Assembly: GCA_030550495.1 (NCBI GenBank)
Contig: JAUQPG010000009.1
Location: forward strand, 1-47,792
Length of the DNA stretch: 47,792 nt
Source of the DNA: Candidatus Bipolaricaulota bacterium
Lineage (GTDB): Bacteria > Bipolaricaulota > Bipolaricaulia > RBG-16-55-9 > DRXL01
Direction: 5' to 3'
Shown here: positions 6,433 through 44,787 of the stretch, piece by piece
How the letters are laid out: every line of letters begins with the position of its first letter
Position numbering within the stretch: the first letter of the stretch is position 1
The notes under the pieces: generated by a model
The model's database searches: none
Told to the model about the DNA's origin: nothing
Seen by the model: the letters and a program-made list of their open reading frames with translations, nothing else
Program-made: the position numbers and the translations under genes

Positions 6433-8226
6433 TTAAAAGTGCTTAAAGATTCGTTCCCCCCAACGTTCTAGCAGTATAAACGCGAGCGCCGAGACGGCAA
6501 TCATTACAGTGCTCATGGCGCTGGGGGCTCCAAGAGAATGCTGACTCAAAAAGCGATAGATGGCGACGGGCATCGTGTTCAATCCCGGCCGAGCTAGCAT
6601 AAGCGTTGCGCTCATCTCGCCCAAGCTGAGCGCGAACGCGAAGACCGCCCCGGCGATCAATCCCCCAGCGACTAAGGGCAGCTCGATCTCGCGCAGCGCC
6701 CGCCAGCGTGATGCCCCCAAGCTGCGCGCCATCTCGACGATCTTCATATCGAGATTCTCCAAGACCGGCACGAGCGCCCGCACCACGAACGGAAATATAA
6801 TCACAGCGTGCGCGATGATCACGGCTGTCGCTGTGCCCGCTAGCTTGAACGGCGGTGCATTGAACGCCCGCAAAAGCGCAAATGCCAACACAATCGATGA
6901 TGTCGCGAGCGGAGCCATCAGGAGCGTATCGAAGAGCCTTCGGCCGGCCCAACGCAGTCGCGCTATCATATATGCGAAGATCAACCCCAACGGCACAGCA
7001 ATCATTGTCGCTCCTAGCCCAAAGCCCAGACTGTTGAGAATCGCTTGCAAGGGAGAATCTCCTAGGAGCGCCTCGTAATCGGGCGTAAAGATATATGAGT
7101 ACCAGCGCAGGGTCCAGCGCCCACCTCCTGGGGCGTCCTCCCAAAACGAGTCGATGACGATAGCAAGCACCGGGCCGACAAAGAGCAGTACGCTCACGAG
7201 CACGTAGAGCCAGAGCAAAATCTTCGCAGGGCGCAGAAGGTCTCTCACCCCAACAAAGAGCGGTATGGTGGAGCGCGGGCGCACATGCTCGGCTTGGCGA
7301 GCAAAGCTTCCCTGCAGGCGCAGATAGAGATAAGTCATCCCCAGCGAGAGCATAAGCCCGATGAGCGCCAGCGCTGCGCCAAGTTTATAGTTTATAAATT
7401 CGGGATCGAGCCGCGTGACGACGCGCGTGTAGATCTCGACTTCGATAGTCGAGAACCGACCGCCGCCTACAGAGAGTACTATAGGGAAGCTCAAAAAACA
7501 AAAGATAAAGACGAGCGCGGCGCCGCTGAGCAGCCCCGGCAGGATCATGGGCAACGTGATGTCCTTGAAGACATAAAAGCGCGACGCGCCCAACGTGCGA
7601 GCGCTCTCCTCGTAGCGCGGGTCGAGGCGCTCCCACGCGGCGTGCACCGTGCGCGTGATGATTGGGGCATTGTAAAAAGCGTGTGCAAGCACGATCCCCG
7701 TCAGAGAGTACATGATGGGCAGGGGCGGCTCACTCAGCCCAAAGAGCTTCATCAAGAACTGATTGAGATAGCCGTTACGTCCGAAGAGCAACGCGAACCC
7801 TAACGCAACGGTGATCGCGGGCAGTACGAAGGGCACAATGGTCAGCGCACGAACTGCTCTTTTGAGCGGGAAGTCATAGCGCGTCAGGATATACGCTAAA
7901 GGTAACCCCAGAATGATACTCGCAAGTGTGCTCAGAAGAGCTTGCCAGAGCGTGAAGAGAATGACATGCTGGAAGTAATCGTCCGCGAGGATCTTGCGCA
8001 CAAACTCGAGAGAGAAGGCGCCGTCTTTGGTGAGCCCCTCGCGCAGTAAGTTCGCTATGGGAGCGTAGAAAAAGATTATTAAGAAGAGCAGGGGGAAGGG
8101 GAGCAGGAAGCCCTCACCCCCCAGGCTGCGCCGGGACCGTACGCCTTCGCCCGCTAAGGCGGGCGAAGCCCACGCGCAGCGTGCTTGCAGGGCAGGGTGA
8201 GGGCCTTTTCGTCTAGAGCGTCTCAC
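6433..8226 (-). CDS. thiP: Thiamine ABC transporter permease, two fused domains (ThiP-like)
   Basis: A membrane permease of about 597 residues containing two tandem BPD_transp_1 domains with about 12 membrane spans, as in ThiP and FbpB. Each half has an EAA-type loop (ARTLGASRFYVFKDITLP in the first, ARSLGASRWRALREIELP in the second) that docks the ATPase. GTG 8226 follows the thiB stop by 5 bp; ATG 8262, overlapping thiB, is the alternative. Residues about 8-39 are encoded by a dispersed palindromic repeat, and there is no in-frame ATG, GTG or TTG between that repeat and the first membrane helix, so the repeat appears to be translated. Confidence 0.92.
   Translation of the reverse strand: MRRSRRKGPHPALQARCAWASPALAGEGVRSRRSLGGEGFLLPFPLLFLIIFFYAPIANLLREGLTKDGAFSLEFVRKILADDYFQHVILFTLWQALLSTLASIILGLPLAYILTRYDFPLKRAVRALTIVPFVLPAITVALGFALLFGRNGYLNQFLMKLFGLSEPPLPIMYSLTGIVLAHAFYNAPIITRTVHAAWERLDPRYEESARTLGASRFYVFKDITLPMILPGLLSGAALVFIFCFLSFPIVLSVGGGRFSTIEVEIYTRVVTRLDPEFINYKLGAALALIGLMLSLGMTYLYLRLQGSFARQAEHVRPRSTIPLFVGVRDLLRPAKILLWLYVLVSVLLFVGPVLAIVIDSFWEDAPGGGRWTLRWYSYIFTPDYEALLGDSPLQAILNSLGFGLGATMIAVPLGLIFAYMIARLRWAGRRLFDTLLMAPLATSSIVLAFALLRAFNAPPFKLAGTATAVIIAHAVIIFPFVVRALVPVLENLDMKIVEMARSLGASRWRALREIELPLVAGGLIAGAVFAFALSLGEMSATLMLARPGLNTMPVAIYRFLSQHSLGAPSAMSTVMIAVSALAFILLERWGERIFKHF
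8110..8205 (-). repeat. Dispersed structured palindrome, copy 1 (inside thiP)
   Basis: Read on the minus strand, the unit has outer arms GGCCCTCACCC / GGGTGAGGGC, then a small hairpin CACGC-TGC-GCGTG, then an inner hairpin CTTCGCCCGC-CTTA-GCGGGCGAAG, then the conserved tail GGCGTACGGTCC. Copies 2 (25012-25094) and 3 (39052-39157) share this order. This copy lies in frame within the 5' end of thiP. Confidence 0.85.
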
Positions 8227-8231
8227 GCTTC

Positions 8232-9269
8232 TTACCGTCCTGTGACGACGAGCCGAGCCCATTCATCGAGCCAGCGGTCGTCGTGCTCCGCGACTAAATT
8301 GAGGGGCAGCATCACCGGATTGGGCGGGATGACTGCACACGTCTGCCATTTCTCTGGGAGCTTCGCGTTTGAGTTCGCTGGGAACATCACTTCCGTATCG
8401 GGAAGCTTCTCTTGGACTTCGACCGAGAGCAAGAAGTCCAAGAACGCTCGAGATAACTTTGGATTGTCTGTGCTCTTGACGATCCCCGCACCGAAGATCG
8501 TGCGGTAGCCCTGATTGTTGAGCAGCAAGGGCTGGTAGCGCGCGTCGAAGCACGCATCTGTGGAGAAGCTCACGACCATTGGCGCTTCGCCCTTGGTGAA
8601 GAGCTTGTACGCGGCGCTCCAGCCAGGTTGGATCGTCAAGATCGTGGGCAAGAGCTGCTTCCAGTATTCGAGATAGCCTGGGTCGCCATAGTTGTAGATT
8701 GTCCAGAAGAGGAAGGCGTGTCCGACGCTGGAGGTCAGCGGGTTCTGAATAATTAGCTTCTTGGCGTACTGAGGCTGGGTCAGGTCCGCGAACGTCTTGG
8801 GCAGCTCTTCGGTCTTGAGCTTCTCGTTGTTGTAGACGAGAGTGATAAACCCGTGCTCATAGGGGATGAGCGTCATATCGGGGTCGAGGAGCAGTTCTTT
8901 AGAGACAGTCTTAAGATTGGGGATGTCGCTCTCGCTTAAGGGGATAAGGAAGCTGAACTTCTTCAGGCGGGGGACGTCGTTGATCTCACCCATGAAGATA
9001 TCGGCGGGTGTGCCTCCGGTGATGAGCTCGTTGATGAGCCGAGCGAGCATAGCGCGGCTTGGCCCGGTAGCGACGAATTCGACTTCGACGCCCGGGTTGC
9101 GCCTCTCAAACTCGGTCTTGATAAACTTCGCCGGGCCCCACGAGACGAAGCTTTCGTAGACATAGACGACGAGCTTCGAGCCTTCGCCGGCCTGAGCCAC
9201 AGAGAAGGAGACGCTCAAAGCCAGCACCGATCCGATGAGCAGTACGACGAGTGCTGCGTGACGCAGCAT
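8232..9269 (-). CDS. thiB: Thiamine ABC transporter substrate-binding protein
   Basis: A 345-residue periplasmic or surface binding protein. The signal peptide covers about residues 1-25 (MLRHAALVVLLIGSVLALS..., cleavage near SVAQAGEG). The mature protein starts KLVVYVYESFVSWGPAKFIK and contains the ThiB-type features PADIFMGEIND and YEHGFITLVYN. ATG 9269 is chosen over the longer frame because AAAGGAGGG (complement of 9277-9285) is correctly spaced and the signal peptide begins there. It is the first gene of thiB-thiP-ATPase, directly downstream of a TPP riboswitch, which supports thiamine or a thiamine-related ligand. Confidence 0.95.
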   Translation of the reverse strand: MLRHAALVVLLIGSVLALSVSFSVAQAGEGSKLVVYVYESFVSWGPAKFIKTEFERRNPGVEVEFVATGPSRAMLARLINELITGGTPADIFMGEINDVPRLKKFSFLIPLSESDIPNLKTVSKELLLDPDMTLIPYEHGFITLVYNNEKLKTEELPKTFADLTQPQYAKKLIIQNPLTSSVGHAFLFWTIYNYGDPGYLEYWKQLLPTILTIQPGWSAAYKLFTKGEAPMVVSFSTDACFDARYQPLLLNNQGYRTIFGAGIVKSTDNPKLSRAFLDFLLSVEVQEKLPDTEVMFPANSNAKLPEKWQTCAVIPPNPVMLPLNLVAEHDDRWLDEWARLVVTGR

Positions 9270-9321
9270 GAAATATCCCTCCTTTGTAGTCTTTCTGAGG
9301 AGAGATCTCGGGAGGAGTGCT

Positions 9322-9420
9322 GAAAGGTTCCCTACGCCGGTATTACCCGGATCAGGTTCCAAGGGTCGGTCTCGGACTAGAGACCCTCTCAGCCCGGTTC
9401 CCCGAGCTCCCCTACGCTGA
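9322..9420 (-). ncRNA. TPP riboswitch (THI element)
   Basis: On the minus strand the aptamer reads GGGGAGC, GGGCTGAGA (complement around 9387-9394), GACCCTTGGAACCTGATC and GGTAATACCGGCGTAGGGA (ending near 9329). These are the conserved THI-box segments that bind thiamine pyrophosphate. Just downstream, CTCCTCC (complement of 9311-9317) can pair with the thiB ribosome site GGAGGG (complement of 9277-9282), so ligand binding probably frees or restores this anti-Shine-Dalgarno pairing and controls translation. No T-run terminator is visible. P1 is weak by eye. Confidence 0.95.
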
Positions 9421-24982: not shown

Positions 24983-25011
24983 AGTCTAGCACAGGAGGCT
25001 CTCTTTGGCAA
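24983..25011 (-). promoter_or_regulatory. Rhomboid gene promoter, leaderless type
   Basis: TTGCCA (complement of 25006-25011), a 17-bp spacer and TAGACT (complement of 24983-24988) end 6 nt before the ATG. The -35 abuts the palindromic repeat starting at 25012. Confidence 0.6.
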
Positions 25012-25094
25012 CCAGGCTTCGCCTGCACGCTGCGCGTGGGCTTCATCTTCGCCGGCTCTGGCCGGCGAAGGCGTACGGTCCAGGCGAAGCCTGG
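25012..25094 (+). repeat. Dispersed structured palindrome, copy 2
   Basis: Outer arms CCAGGCTTCGCCTG / CAGGCGAAGCCTGG, small hairpin CACGC-TGC-GCGTG, inner hairpin CTTCGCCGGC-TCTG-GCCGGCGAAG, and the shared GGCGTACGGTCC tail. It lies between the divergent rhomboid and mscS genes. Outer arms differ in sequence from copies 1 and 3 but still pair. Confidence 0.85.
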
Positions 25095-25134
25095 CTGGCG
25101 AAAGCAAGCTCAATCTGCTATAAAATCTAAGAGT

Positions 25135-39051: not shown

Positions 39052-39157
39052 GGCCCTCACCCCAGCCCCTCTCCCGCACGCTGCGCGTGGGCTTCATCTT
39101 GGCCGGCCCACGGCCGGCCAAGGCATACGGTCCAGGCGAAGTCTGGGGGTGAGGGCC
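39052..39157 (+). repeat. Dispersed structured palindrome, copy 3
   Basis: Outer arms GGCCCTCACCCC / GGGGTGAGGGCC, small hairpin CACGC-TGC-GCGTG, inner hairpin CTTGGCCGGCC-CAC-GGCCGGCCAAG, and tail GGCATACGGTCC. It fills the gap between convergent genes and ends exactly at the prfA stop codon, so it may serve as a 3'-end hairpin for both. Confidence 0.85.
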
Positions 39158-40227
39158 TACTTCTCCAACTCTGCCAACTGCTGCTCTCGATAGGCTCTAT
39201 CTAGCGCAGTGATGAGTTCGTCCAGCTCGCCCTCAAGAATGCGATCGAGTTGATAGAGCGTCAGATCAATACGGTGATCCGTGACGCGATTCTGCGGGAA
39301 GTTATATGTTCTGATCTTCTCGCTGCGCGCGGCGGTGCCGATCTGAATCCGCCGTTGCTGGGTGATCTCGCGCTGTTGCTCGAGTTCGTACTTCTCTTGG
39401 AGGCGCGCCCGCAACAGCTTCATCGCCTTCTCTCGGTTCTTGTGCTGACTGCGTTCCTCCTGGCACGTCACGACGATCCCCGTGGGCTTGTGAACTAAGC
39501 GCACAGCTGTGGCAACTTTATTGACGTTCTGGCCGCCGGGGCCACCGGCACGAAACGCTTCAAATTCTATGTCTTCATCGCGGATCTCGATTTGAACGTC
39601 TTGGATCTCCGGGAGCACCGCGACCGTAGCTGTGCTCGTGTGAATCCGCCCTGATGCTTCGGTCTCTGGGACGCGCTGAACCCGATGGACCCCGCTCTCA
39701 AACTTAAATTTGCCGAACGCCCCCGGCCCCGCTACCTCAAAGACGATCTGTTTAAATCCCCCTAAGTCCGTGGGGTGCGCGTCCAGAATCTCTATGCGAA
39801 AGTTCTGGGCGTCTGCGTACTTTTTGTACATTCTGAACAGATCGGCAGCGAAGAGCGCCGACTCTTCCCCGCCGGCCCCGGCGCGAATCTCTACGATCGC
39901 ATCGCCCGCATCGCGTGGGTCTTCAGGGACGAGCAGGAGCCGCGCTTCGTCGAGGAGCTGAGCGCGCTCGGCCTCGGCACGCTCCAGCTCTTCTTTCGCG
40001 AGAGCGCGTAGGTCCCCATCGCTCTCTAAGAGTTCGCGCGCCTCAGCTATAGACTTCTCCAGGCCTTGCAAACGCTCATACAGCTCGACAGGACGCTTCA
40101 GCCGCGCGTACTCCTGCGAGAGCTGTATGTATTGAGCACTATTGATAGTCTCCGGCTGGCTGAGCTGACGCTCAAGCTCATAATATCTCTTGTGTAACTC
40201 AGCCAGACGATCTAAAACCTTCTCCAT
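39157..40227 (-). CDS. prfA: Peptide chain release factor 1
   Basis: Reads UAA and UAG in the ribosomal A site and triggers peptide release. Length 356 residues, normal for RF1. The stop-recognition PxT motif is present as PET in [14 protein letters not shown], and the catalytic GGQ is in [13 protein letters not shown]. The HRVQRVPET form and absence of the SPF motif separate it from RF2. No hemK methyltransferase gene follows. A TATAAA box lies 11 nt before the ATG, divergent from nadB. Confidence 0.97.
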
Positions 40228-40301: not shown

Positions 40302-41867
40302 ATGGACGCTACCGAAAGCGATTTTCTCGTCATCGGTGCGGGACTGGCCGGGCTCTACGCGGCGCTGGGGGCAGCTCAGTACGGACGTGTATGCTTACTC
40401 ACCAAGACAAGCATCTCTGAAACGAATTCCGCGTGGGCCCAAGGGGGCATTGCCGCGGCCGTTGACGAGAGCGACTCTCCGCAGCTCCATCGAGAGGACA
40501 CGCTCCAGGCTGGGCGGGGACTATGCGATGAGCACGCTGTGGATGTCTTAGTGCGCGAGGGACCGCAGTGTATCAAAGACTTAGAGAGCTTAGGGGTTGC
40601 GTTCGACCGGACGCCCTCAGGCTATGAGCTCGGGCGCGAGGGGGGGCACAGCCGCCGCCGCATCGTCCACGCTGGGGGAAGCTCTACAGGGCAGCGCGTC
40701 GTCGCCCGACTCTCTGAGCTTGTCCTGCAAAATCCCCATATCACCCTGATCGAGCACTCACCCGTCATCGAACTGCTGACAGCTGATGGGGCATGTGTTG
40801 GGGCGAAGGTCGTGCGCGAGCAGACCGAACAGATTGTACTTGCCCGCGCGACGATCTTGGCGACTGGGGGAGCTGCAGCGCTCTACGCGCGCACGACCAA
40901 TCCCCCCGGCGCCACCGGCGAGGGCATCGCCTTAGCTTATCGTGCTGGAGCAGAGCTTGCGGATTTAGAGTTTATCCAGTTTCACCCGACAGCGCTCGCC
41001 GTTCCTACAGCGCGTAGTTTTCTCATCAGTGAAGCCGTGCGGGGAGAAGGCGCGTATCTGTTAAACCCTGATGGGGAGCGCTTTATGCTCAAGTACGATG
41101 AGCGTGGGGAGCTAGCCCCGCGCGATGTCGTCGCCCGCGCGATCTTTGAAGAGATGCGAAGATCCAAGACCGATCACGTCTTTCTCAGCCTGAAGCATTT
41201 GAAGCCTGCTCTCGTGCGCTCGCGTTTTGCGAATATCTACGAGGCGTGTCGTCAGTACGGGCTCGATCTGACGCGCGATCTCATCCCAGTGGCGCCGGCG
41301 GCGCACTACACGATCGGGGGCGTGCGCACCAATCTCTGGGCCGAGACGACCGTGAAAAATCTCTTTGCTATCGGCGAAGTTGCATGCACCGGGGTACACG
41401 GGGCCAATCGCCTCGCGAGCAATTCACTCTTAGAGTGCTTGGTCTTTGCGCGGCGCGCCGTGGAAGCTGCTGTGCGACAAGAGAGTTCAGAGTTCCGAGT
41501 TGCAAGTTCTGAGCTCAAAAATTGCGAGCGTCAAGGTACAAGCATGGGGCTGACTTCTGAGGAGCACTGTCTAGATCAGATCAAGCGTGTGATGACCGAG
41601 TACGTCGGGTTGGTGCGAGACCGCGCGGGTCTGGAGCACGCTATCCACGAGCTAAGCCGTCTCGAATCGAGAAGCTCTGGGCTTTTGAAAGACCAAGCGT
41701 TGGTCGCGCGGCTGATCGCCCAGAGCGCGCTCTTGCGCACTGAGACGCGCGGGGTTCACATTCGTTCGGATTTCCCCAACGAAGATCCCGCCTGGCAGGC
41801 GCATATCATCGTGCACAAAGATCGCCCCTTGCGCTTGGAGAAACAGCTACAAGCGGGGTCGCCATGA
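40302..41867 (+). CDS. nadB: L-aspartate oxidase
   Basis: FAD enzyme oxidising aspartate to iminoaspartate, the first step of de novo NAD synthesis; 521 residues. FAD-binding VIGAGLAGLYAAL is at about 10-22; NSAWAQGGIAAA, HAGGSSTGQRV, EFIQFHPTAL, APAAHYTIGGVRTN and GANRLASNSLLE are family motifs. ATG 40302 follows the -10 by 12 nt; the longer frame to 40260 reads the promoter. Residues about 397-409 (SSEFRVASSELKN) are encoded by an AGTTC-type simple repeat inserted in the linker before the helical C-terminus. nadC overlaps by 4 bp. Confidence 0.96.
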   Translation: MDATESDFLVIGAGLAGLYAALGAAQYGRVCLLTKTSISETNSAWAQGGIAAAVDESDSPQLHREDTLQAGRGLCDEHAVDVLVREGPQCIKDLESLGVAFDRTPSGYELGREGGHSRRRIVHAGGSSTGQRVVARLSELVLQNPHITLIEHSPVIELLTADGACVGAKVVREQTEQIVLARATILATGGAAALYARTTNPPGATGEGIALAYRAGAELADLEFIQFHPTALAVPTARSFLISEAVRGEGAYLLNPDGERFMLKYDERGELAPRDVVARAIFEEMRRSKTDHVFLSLKHLKPALVRSRFANIYEACRQYGLDLTRDLIPVAPAAHYTIGGVRTNLWAETTVKNLFAIGEVACTGVHGANRLASNSLLECLVFARRAVEAAVRQESSEFRVASSELKNCERQGTSMGLTSEEHCLDQIKRVMTEYVGLVRDRAGLEHAIHELSRLESRSSGLLKDQALVARLIAQSALLRTETRGVHIRSDFPNEDPAWQAHIIVHKDRPLRLEKQLQAGSP

Positions 41868-43668: not shown

Positions 43669-44787
43669 ATGAAGCGCGTCTTGGTCGGCATGAGCGGCGG
43701 CGTGGATAGCTCTGTTGCAGCACTCTTGCTCAAGCAGCAGGGCTACGAAGTCATTGGCGTCACGCTCAATCTATGGTCCTACGAAGATCGCCAGGAGCCG
43801 TATAACGAATGCTGTTCTTTGGAAGTGCGCACCGTTGCGCAGCAATTGGGAATCGAACATCACTTCATTGATGCTGGGCGTGAATTCAAAGAGCGCGTCG
43901 TCGATGTCTTTCTCGCGGAGCACGCCCAGGGGCGCACCCCTAGCCCCTGCGGACGGTGCAATCGCCTCGTGCGCTTCCCGATTCTCTTAGAGCTTGCGGA
44001 TCGCTTCGGCTGTGACTACTTAGCGACGGGGCACCATGCTCGCATCGCCGTCGAAGACGGGGTCTACTATCTCTTGACGAGCAGGGACCCCATCAAAGAT
44101 CAGTCGTATTTTCTGTATGGCTTGACTCAAGCGCAGCTGCGCAAAATTCTCTTTCCTGTGGGGGATCTCTTGAAGAGCGAGGTCTGGCAGATCGCCAGGG
44201 CACATAACTTAGTTGCAGCCCGCAAGCCAGAGAGCATGGACTTGTGCTTCATCCCTGGGGGCGACTATCGCGCATATCTGCGAGAGAAGCTCGATGGCAT
44301 TGTGCGCCCAGGGGAGATTGTCGACACATCGGGGCGCGTCGTAGGACGCCATGAAGGGCTGGCTTTTTATACGATCGGGCAGCGCCAGGGGCTGGGGATC
44401 GCGCTGGGGCAGCGCGTCTACGTCGTGGGCTTCGATTACGAAAACAATAGATTGATTGTGGGCGATGAGCGCGCACTGCTCTCGGAAGGGCTGATCGCGA
44501 CCGATGTGAATCTCATCTATAAGCCATTAGCTCTCAGCTCTCAGCTTTCCGTGGATGTGAAGATTCGCTACCGTAGCCCGCGCGTGCCCGCGACGTTAGA
44601 ATTCTTAGATGACAAGCGCGTGTGCGTGCGCTTCGCCCAGCCCCAGCGCGCCGTCACTCCGGGGCAGATCGCAGTCTTTTACGAGGGCGAGCGCGTCCTT
44701 GGGGGTGGCATCATCGAGCACGCGCTACGGCAAGCAGACAGCACCAAGTCTATTGCCGAAAATTCTGTTTTGGTCGAGCACCGCTGA
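43669..44787 (+). CDS. mnmA: tRNA-specific 2-thiouridylase
   Basis: Adds sulfur to the wobble uridine of Lys, Glu and Gln tRNAs. 372 residues. The PP-loop MSGGVDSSVAALL is at 8-20. The catalytic cysteines are in TPSPCGRCNR and MDLCFIPGGDY, and GHHARI and KDQSYFLYGL are conserved. CCSLE near residue 40 matches the subfamily with an extra Cys pair. ALSSQLS near residue 286 is encoded by a simple AGCTCTC repeat. It lies 12 bp after nadA. Its 3' end overlaps the convergent beta-helix gene by 63 bp. Confidence 0.96.
   Translation: MKRVLVGMSGGVDSSVAALLLKQQGYEVIGVTLNLWSYEDRQEPYNECCSLEVRTVAQQLGIEHHFIDAGREFKERVVDVFLAEHAQGRTPSPCGRCNRLVRFPILLELADRFGCDYLATGHHARIAVEDGVYYLLTSRDPIKDQSYFLYGLTQAQLRKILFPVGDLLKSEVWQIARAHNLVAARKPESMDLCFIPGGDYRAYLREKLDGIVRPGEIVDTSGRVVGRHEGLAFYTIGQRQGLGIALGQRVYVVGFDYENNRLIVGDERALLSEGLIATDVNLIYKPLALSSQLSVDVKIRYRSPRVPATLEFLDDKRVCVRFAQPQRAVTPGQIAVFYEGERVLGGGIIEHALRQADSTKSIAENSVLVEHR

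Follow-up and report, generated by a model that had tools for sequence, protein, structure and literature searches.

Members of Candidatus Bipolaricaulota carry palindromic repeats of several families in frame inside unrelated conserved genes, and the same loops are native in some close relatives and filled by different repeat families in others. The presence of these repeats, their frame, openness and dispersal, the native loops in relatives, and the occurrence of different families at one site are shown by the analysis below. That ribosomes read them is an inference, made without expression data, and one that is hard to avoid at internal sites: because inserts inside conserved enzymes have conserved sequence on both sides, the lineage likely carries palindromes translated inside proteins. 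A repeat in a ThiP-like permease gene of the source genome (G000, a member of Candidatus Bipolaricaulota) is probably one part of this genome-wide in-frame insertion, and we hold the explanation as a whole to be likely.

The repeat in a ThiP-like permease gene

The window, that is, the whole stretch of 47,792 nucleotides that was analysed, contains on its minus strand the open reading frame of a fused ABC permease (6433 to 8226; 597 residues from the favoured GTG start codon at 8224 to 8226). The permease is a duplicated BPD_transp_1 protein whose matches to thiP models all fall short of the curated cut-offs, so “ThiP-like” is a safer name than the thiP of the initial annotation. The reading frame is also open from an ATG at 8262, which gives 609 residues. 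The GTG lies 5 nt after the stop (TAA, 8234 to 8232) of the upstream gene, which encodes a ThiB-like solute-binding protein (8232 to 9362, minus strand), and starts at the equivalent place are found in G001, G003, G004, G005, and G007.

The repeat is a palindromic unit of 95–96 bp (8110 to 8205, minus strand). With the GTG as codon 1, positions 8205 to 8110 are exactly codons 8–39 (GPHPALQARCAWASPALAGEGVRSRRSLGGEG). This bears out the initial annotation, which had placed a dispersed repeat at these coordinates, in frame in the 5′ part of the gene, and had assigned it to about residues 8–39; its claim that the source-genome gene has no in-frame ATG, GTG, or TTG from the end of the repeat up to the first membrane helix also held. 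The strand carrying the repeat has a predicted fold of −68.6 kcal/mol over 128 nt. In an AlphaFold model of the permease, residues 1–36 are disordered (pLDDT < 50) and the first helix begins at residue 38. An Rfam scan of the region returned sub-threshold matches only, none above the gathering score.

When its copies are compared, the unit proves to be composite, with family B modules nested in family A arms, an arrangement also present elsewhere in the source genome. Its outer arms, GCCCTCACCC (8110 to 8119) and GGGTGAGGGC (8195 to 8204), are of family A type, the former resembling the palindrome arms at the ThiP site of G001 and G004, and together they enclose a core hairpin of family B type, CTTCGCCCGC-TAAG-GCGGGCGAAG (8145 to 8168). 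Family A has the form CCCTCACCCC..CCTCTCCC..GGGAGAGG..GGGGTGAGGG, plus related AGACCT..AGGTCT forms, and the family B modules are CCAGGCTTCGCCTGG, GGCGGGCGAAG, and GCGCAGCGTGC. The 1.63 Mb assembly holds 18 matches to the unit at E ≤ 0.001, self counted. A second copy in the window, a family B repeat (25004 to 25102), and a third, family B within family A arms (39052 to 39166), are both intergenic.

The interval from the upstream stop to the first helix also holds a palindrome in three species of the same genus (G001, G004, and G005) and in one of the same family (G007). The five occupied species differ in the core of the palindrome, with outer arms in common in G000, G001, and G004, and in all five the palindrome is open and in frame with a GTG or ATG just past the upstream stop. 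In each relative the palindrome matches dispersed repeats of its own genome (13 matches in G001, and 52–63 in G004, G005, and G007). The site is empty in G003, of the same genus, which has just MRRWGGEQ there; more distant relatives mostly have short tails, of about 5–9 residues in clear cases, and G028, of another family, has a degenerate in-frame palindrome. The expectation of the initial annotation that the insertion would be confined to the source genome thus failed, as most close relatives carry an insertion of different sequence at this position. How many independent events occurred is uncertain because the ThiP tree leaves genus g1 unresolved; by sequence type there were at least three. 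Separately, two genomes (G010 and G059; loci L016 and L017) have no ATG, GTG, or TTG near the expected permease start, and an ATA or ATC after a GGAGG motif there is possibly a non-standard start codon.

The main caution on the ThiP-like tail comes from N-terminal REPs of several proteobacteria, which were judged often to be untranslated (PMC3733652). By analogy, the repeat would be an untranslated operon spacer whose arm GGTGAGGG serves as the ribosome-binding site for a non-standard start codon (CTG, for example) downstream of the repeat. In favour of this, GGTGAGGG lies a few nucleotides 5′ of an in-frame CTG just before the helix and is a possible Shine-Dalgarno sequence; G001 has an in-frame GTG after the repeat; and intergenic copies elsewhere stand before proper ATGs. 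Against it, the frame fits an upstream start beside the preceding stop in all five occupied species; three of the five (G000, G004, and G005) have no ATG, GTG, or TTG after the repeat, the other two (G001 and G007) having one in or just after the arm; a short protein would miss the basic residues that precede the helix in most unoccupied relatives; and copies lie within conserved sequence of other genes in the same genomes. We consider the spacer unlikely. The upstream starts, the loss of the basic tail from a downstream start, and the empty site of one congener make a translated repeat the most economical reading, and probably the correct one, with translation inferred and not measured by proteomics or ribosome profiling. 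The initial annotation had offered either a translated repeat or a CTG start; the former is supported, and the latter remains possible and cannot be excluded for this gene.

Repeat copies inside conserved enzymes

The classification covered 97 repeat copies, drawn from 75 stretches of G000, G001, G005, and G007 by repeat search and not at random. A copy counted as in frame if it lay inside an ORF, had no stop, and was flanked on either side by coding-like sequence in its own frame; the classification thresholds were exploratory. Under this rule, 32 of the 97 copies are in frame, 9 have same-strand flanks with a different or interrupted frame, 6 sit between opposite strands, and the remaining 50 are either intergenic or unclear; the in-frame count is conservative as to MutL, whose copy the rule classes as unclear. 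No gene broken by a repeat was found among the 97 copies, the nine same-strand exceptions being gene boundaries, C-terminal extensions, or leader positions. The used frame of the in-frame copies is stop-free, which is partly so by construction because openness was a selection criterion; for the remaining two frames on the same strand, 20 of 60 cases are open. Ribosomal bypassing was also considered and was dropped as unneeded, every counted in-gene copy being open and in frame.

Hosts identified by NCBIfam models above cut-off are LeuS, Dxr, PurL (two inserts), MnmA, NadB, HypF (two inserts), Tgt, RecG, TpiA, agmatinase, TilS, MutL, and biotin ligase. Alignment to PDB structures places the inserts of TpiA, Dxr, and Tgt between conserved elements, before the AYEPVWAIGTG strand, PIDSEH, and FGIVQGG, respectively. 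In the source genome the TpiA insert is 19 residues long. TilS, MutL, and a membrane-bound transcription factor of that genome also hold in-frame inserts, and in relatives the corresponding linker or loop is occupied by a different repeat.

Some further observations concern single copies. Compared with solved Tgt, the Tgt of G005 (L160) has some 35 additional residues at 102–137, after FSLG, a second insertion that is probably another repeat. An A-type repeat makes up the C-terminal tail of an Rrf2-like regulator (L044, 2500 to 2600). Family B repeats adjoin apparent tRNA gene ends (L043, 1990 to 2140; L050, 2020 to 2080), a possible preferred insertion place.

Filled, empty, and differently filled loops

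For 16 sites, orthologues were gathered within the family, with at most eight genomes per site, and the frame is kept in all 93 placed loops. Among the 11 sites with a native-length loop, a fold of z ≤ −4 was found by hand count in 28 of the 32 loops that are longer by 11 aa or more, and in none of the 31 loops within 5 aa of the shortest. Long loops are thus mostly self-complementary and short ones never, so most of the length variation at these 11 sites comes from palindromes. The NadB loop is a weak case, its length varying without palindromes in most species. In the NadB of the window (41262 to 41783), the loop has SSEFRVASSELKN-like residues, which look like heptamer-derived coding repeats and not like an A or B palindrome.

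A referee might ask whether the inserts are assembly artefacts or the host genes pseudogenes, since the genomes are draft metagenome assemblies and palindromes are difficult to assemble. Against this, the frame is kept in every placed loop across independent assemblies, the used frame has no stop codons, and a second place was listed neither for G005 LeuS nor for G000 TpiA. This explanation is all but excluded.

In TpiA, Dxr, Tgt, an SbcD-related phosphoesterase, and HypF, a loop that holds family A in one species holds family B in another. In MnmA (44299 to 44775, plus strand), the loop is native in the source genome, holds palindromes in G003, G005, and G008, and has a repeat-like insert in G004. 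For LeuS, LdhH, and PurL, the loop is filled at an identical junction in G005 and G008, which belong to different genera, and keeps its native residues in G000 and, where sampled, in G007. The flanks of the G005 genes are closest to those of the empty G000 and not to those of the occupied G008. Gene-wide transfer between G005 and G008 was ruled out for the three genes by flank identities. As an observation in its own right, the parallel inserts of G005 and G008 at a single codon junction per gene, with nearer relatives native, can be seen in the locus pairs L211/L201 (LeuS), L230/L219 (LdhH), and L204/L206 (PurL).

An alternative to repeated insertion is that each site received one ancestral insertion, which has since diverged beyond recognition. 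This is supported by the outer arms common to G000, G001, and G004 at the ThiP site, by the A-type repeats that recur in the RecG, TilS, and C45 loops, and by the A-type inserts at the same junction in G005 and G008. Against it, near relatives of occupied species have native loop residues (EFSDAKAR in PurL and TPERD in LdhH), which would not be regained by deleting a repeat; the unrelated families A and B lie in the same loop in different species; and the G005 flanks of LeuS, LdhH, and PurL are nearest the empty genome. We regard a single ancestral insert as unlikely. Repeated insertion at tolerant loops, or hotspots, is favoured, and is likely, because G005 and G008 are filled, G000 and G007 are native, and the G005 flanks are nearest G000.

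A bolder reading, which we put forward only as a possibility, is that an active, RAYT-independent mechanism repeatedly puts palindromes into identical codon junctions in core enzymes and replaces the native loop. It rests on the parallel inserts of LeuS, LdhH, PurL, and Tgt in G005 and G008 with nearer relatives native and, if true, would imply site preference or short gene conversion in place of random insertion followed by selection.

Spread of the repeats and comparison with known systems

A-type palindromes number 9–113 in genera g1 and g3, versus 0–26 in the rest of the phylum sampled, with 0–12 in a reversed-pattern control. No Y1 transposase (RAYT; Y1_Tnp, PF01797) was found in G000, G001, G003–G005, or G007–G009, whose assemblies are 61–93% complete; the sole exception in the g1/g3 RAYT search is one partial Y1_Tnp match in G002. 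By inspection the units end in CCCTCACC/GGTGAGGG, AGACCT/AGGTCT, or CCAGGC. No GTAG or CGTC tags were seen at the unit ends of the copies inspected by eye, without a systematic scan, and no target-site duplication was recognised at the inserts inspected, nor a parent transposase for the repeats. The AGACCT..AGGTCT ends of one A-type form (HypF of G005) suggest defined termini.

In the explanation that we favour, several palindrome families (A and B) would have spread through the genomes of this Bipolaricaulota family (genera g1 and g3), with mobilisation inferred to act in trans. In-frame copies in surface loops, linkers, and termini would survive selection, loop exposure being itself inferred, and unrelated families would hit the same tolerant loops again and again, the inserted peptides being putatively near-neutral filler. 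In the ThiP-like permease, a non-autonomous palindromic element would have entered the gene in frame, past the start codon and ahead of the first membrane helix, and its translation would give a disordered, basic N-terminal tail. The Bipolaricaulota inserts form a natural catalogue of loops that tolerate 20–30 extra residues, and they advise caution in annotating start sites and in taking indels as adaptive.

Elements of this kind are already known, as RPEs, Wolbachia elements, and intragenic REPs. Coding palindromes have been described mainly from the obligate intracellular Rickettsia and Wolbachia, with intragenic REPs scattered elsewhere, and no report of them in Bipolaricaulota was found in the literature searched. 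Inverted repeats also occur inside protein-coding genes of Nematomorpha mitochondria (PMC6649704); there, however, they are embedded in mitochondrial coding sequence, whereas the Bipolaricaulota repeats are dispersed insertions, and relatives have the loops concerned in native form. Intragenic MITEs such as Coxiella QMITE1 are similar in being small non-autonomous inverted-repeat elements able to fuse in frame with genes (PMC10969869); for the repeats studied here, neither a parent transposase nor a target-site duplication was recognised. Intragenic REPs with GTAG or CGTC tags are known from Opitutus terrae, Thauera, Thioalkalivibrio, and Xanthomonas (PMC3733652). They are likewise dispersed short palindromes, some in frame inside ORFs, including one at approximately the same recB site in two species (PMC3733652). 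The Bipolaricaulota families differ in having CCCTCACC, AGACCT, or CCAGGC arms, without those tags as far as inspected, and in the absence of a detected RAYT from the eight genomes listed above.

The closest likeness is to the Rickettsia palindromic elements, reportedly described by Ogata in 2000 and 2002, and to the Wolbachia elements. RPEs are palindromic repeats in frame in unrelated conserved genes, at exposed positions, with groups that differ at one locus between species (PMC10969869, PMC3767692), and the Rickettsia and Wolbachia elements share with the present repeats the in-frame palindromes, the unrelated conserved hosts, and the different groups per locus. Two features expected of RPE-like elements are present here: palindromic units in many dispersed copies, and in-frame insertion into existing ORFs at sites that are empty in homologues. 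The initial annotation's comparison to RPEs is thereby supported as to kind, with no sequence homology claimed. The Bipolaricaulota units are shorter (about 50–120 bp, versus 100–150 bp for RPEs) and occur in a different phylum, without, to our knowledge, any reported intracellular life. Unlike the Rickettsia and Wolbachia elements, they show empty native loops in close relatives and several families at one loop. With several repeat families in core enzymes of a candidate phylum, and close relatives filled or empty, they offer comparative material on the question of hotspots versus single inserts (PMC3767692). Compared with the known systems, three things are new: the lineage; repeat families that, in the copies inspected, lack the known tags; and a clear series of loops, native, A-filled, or B-filled, among closely related genomes.
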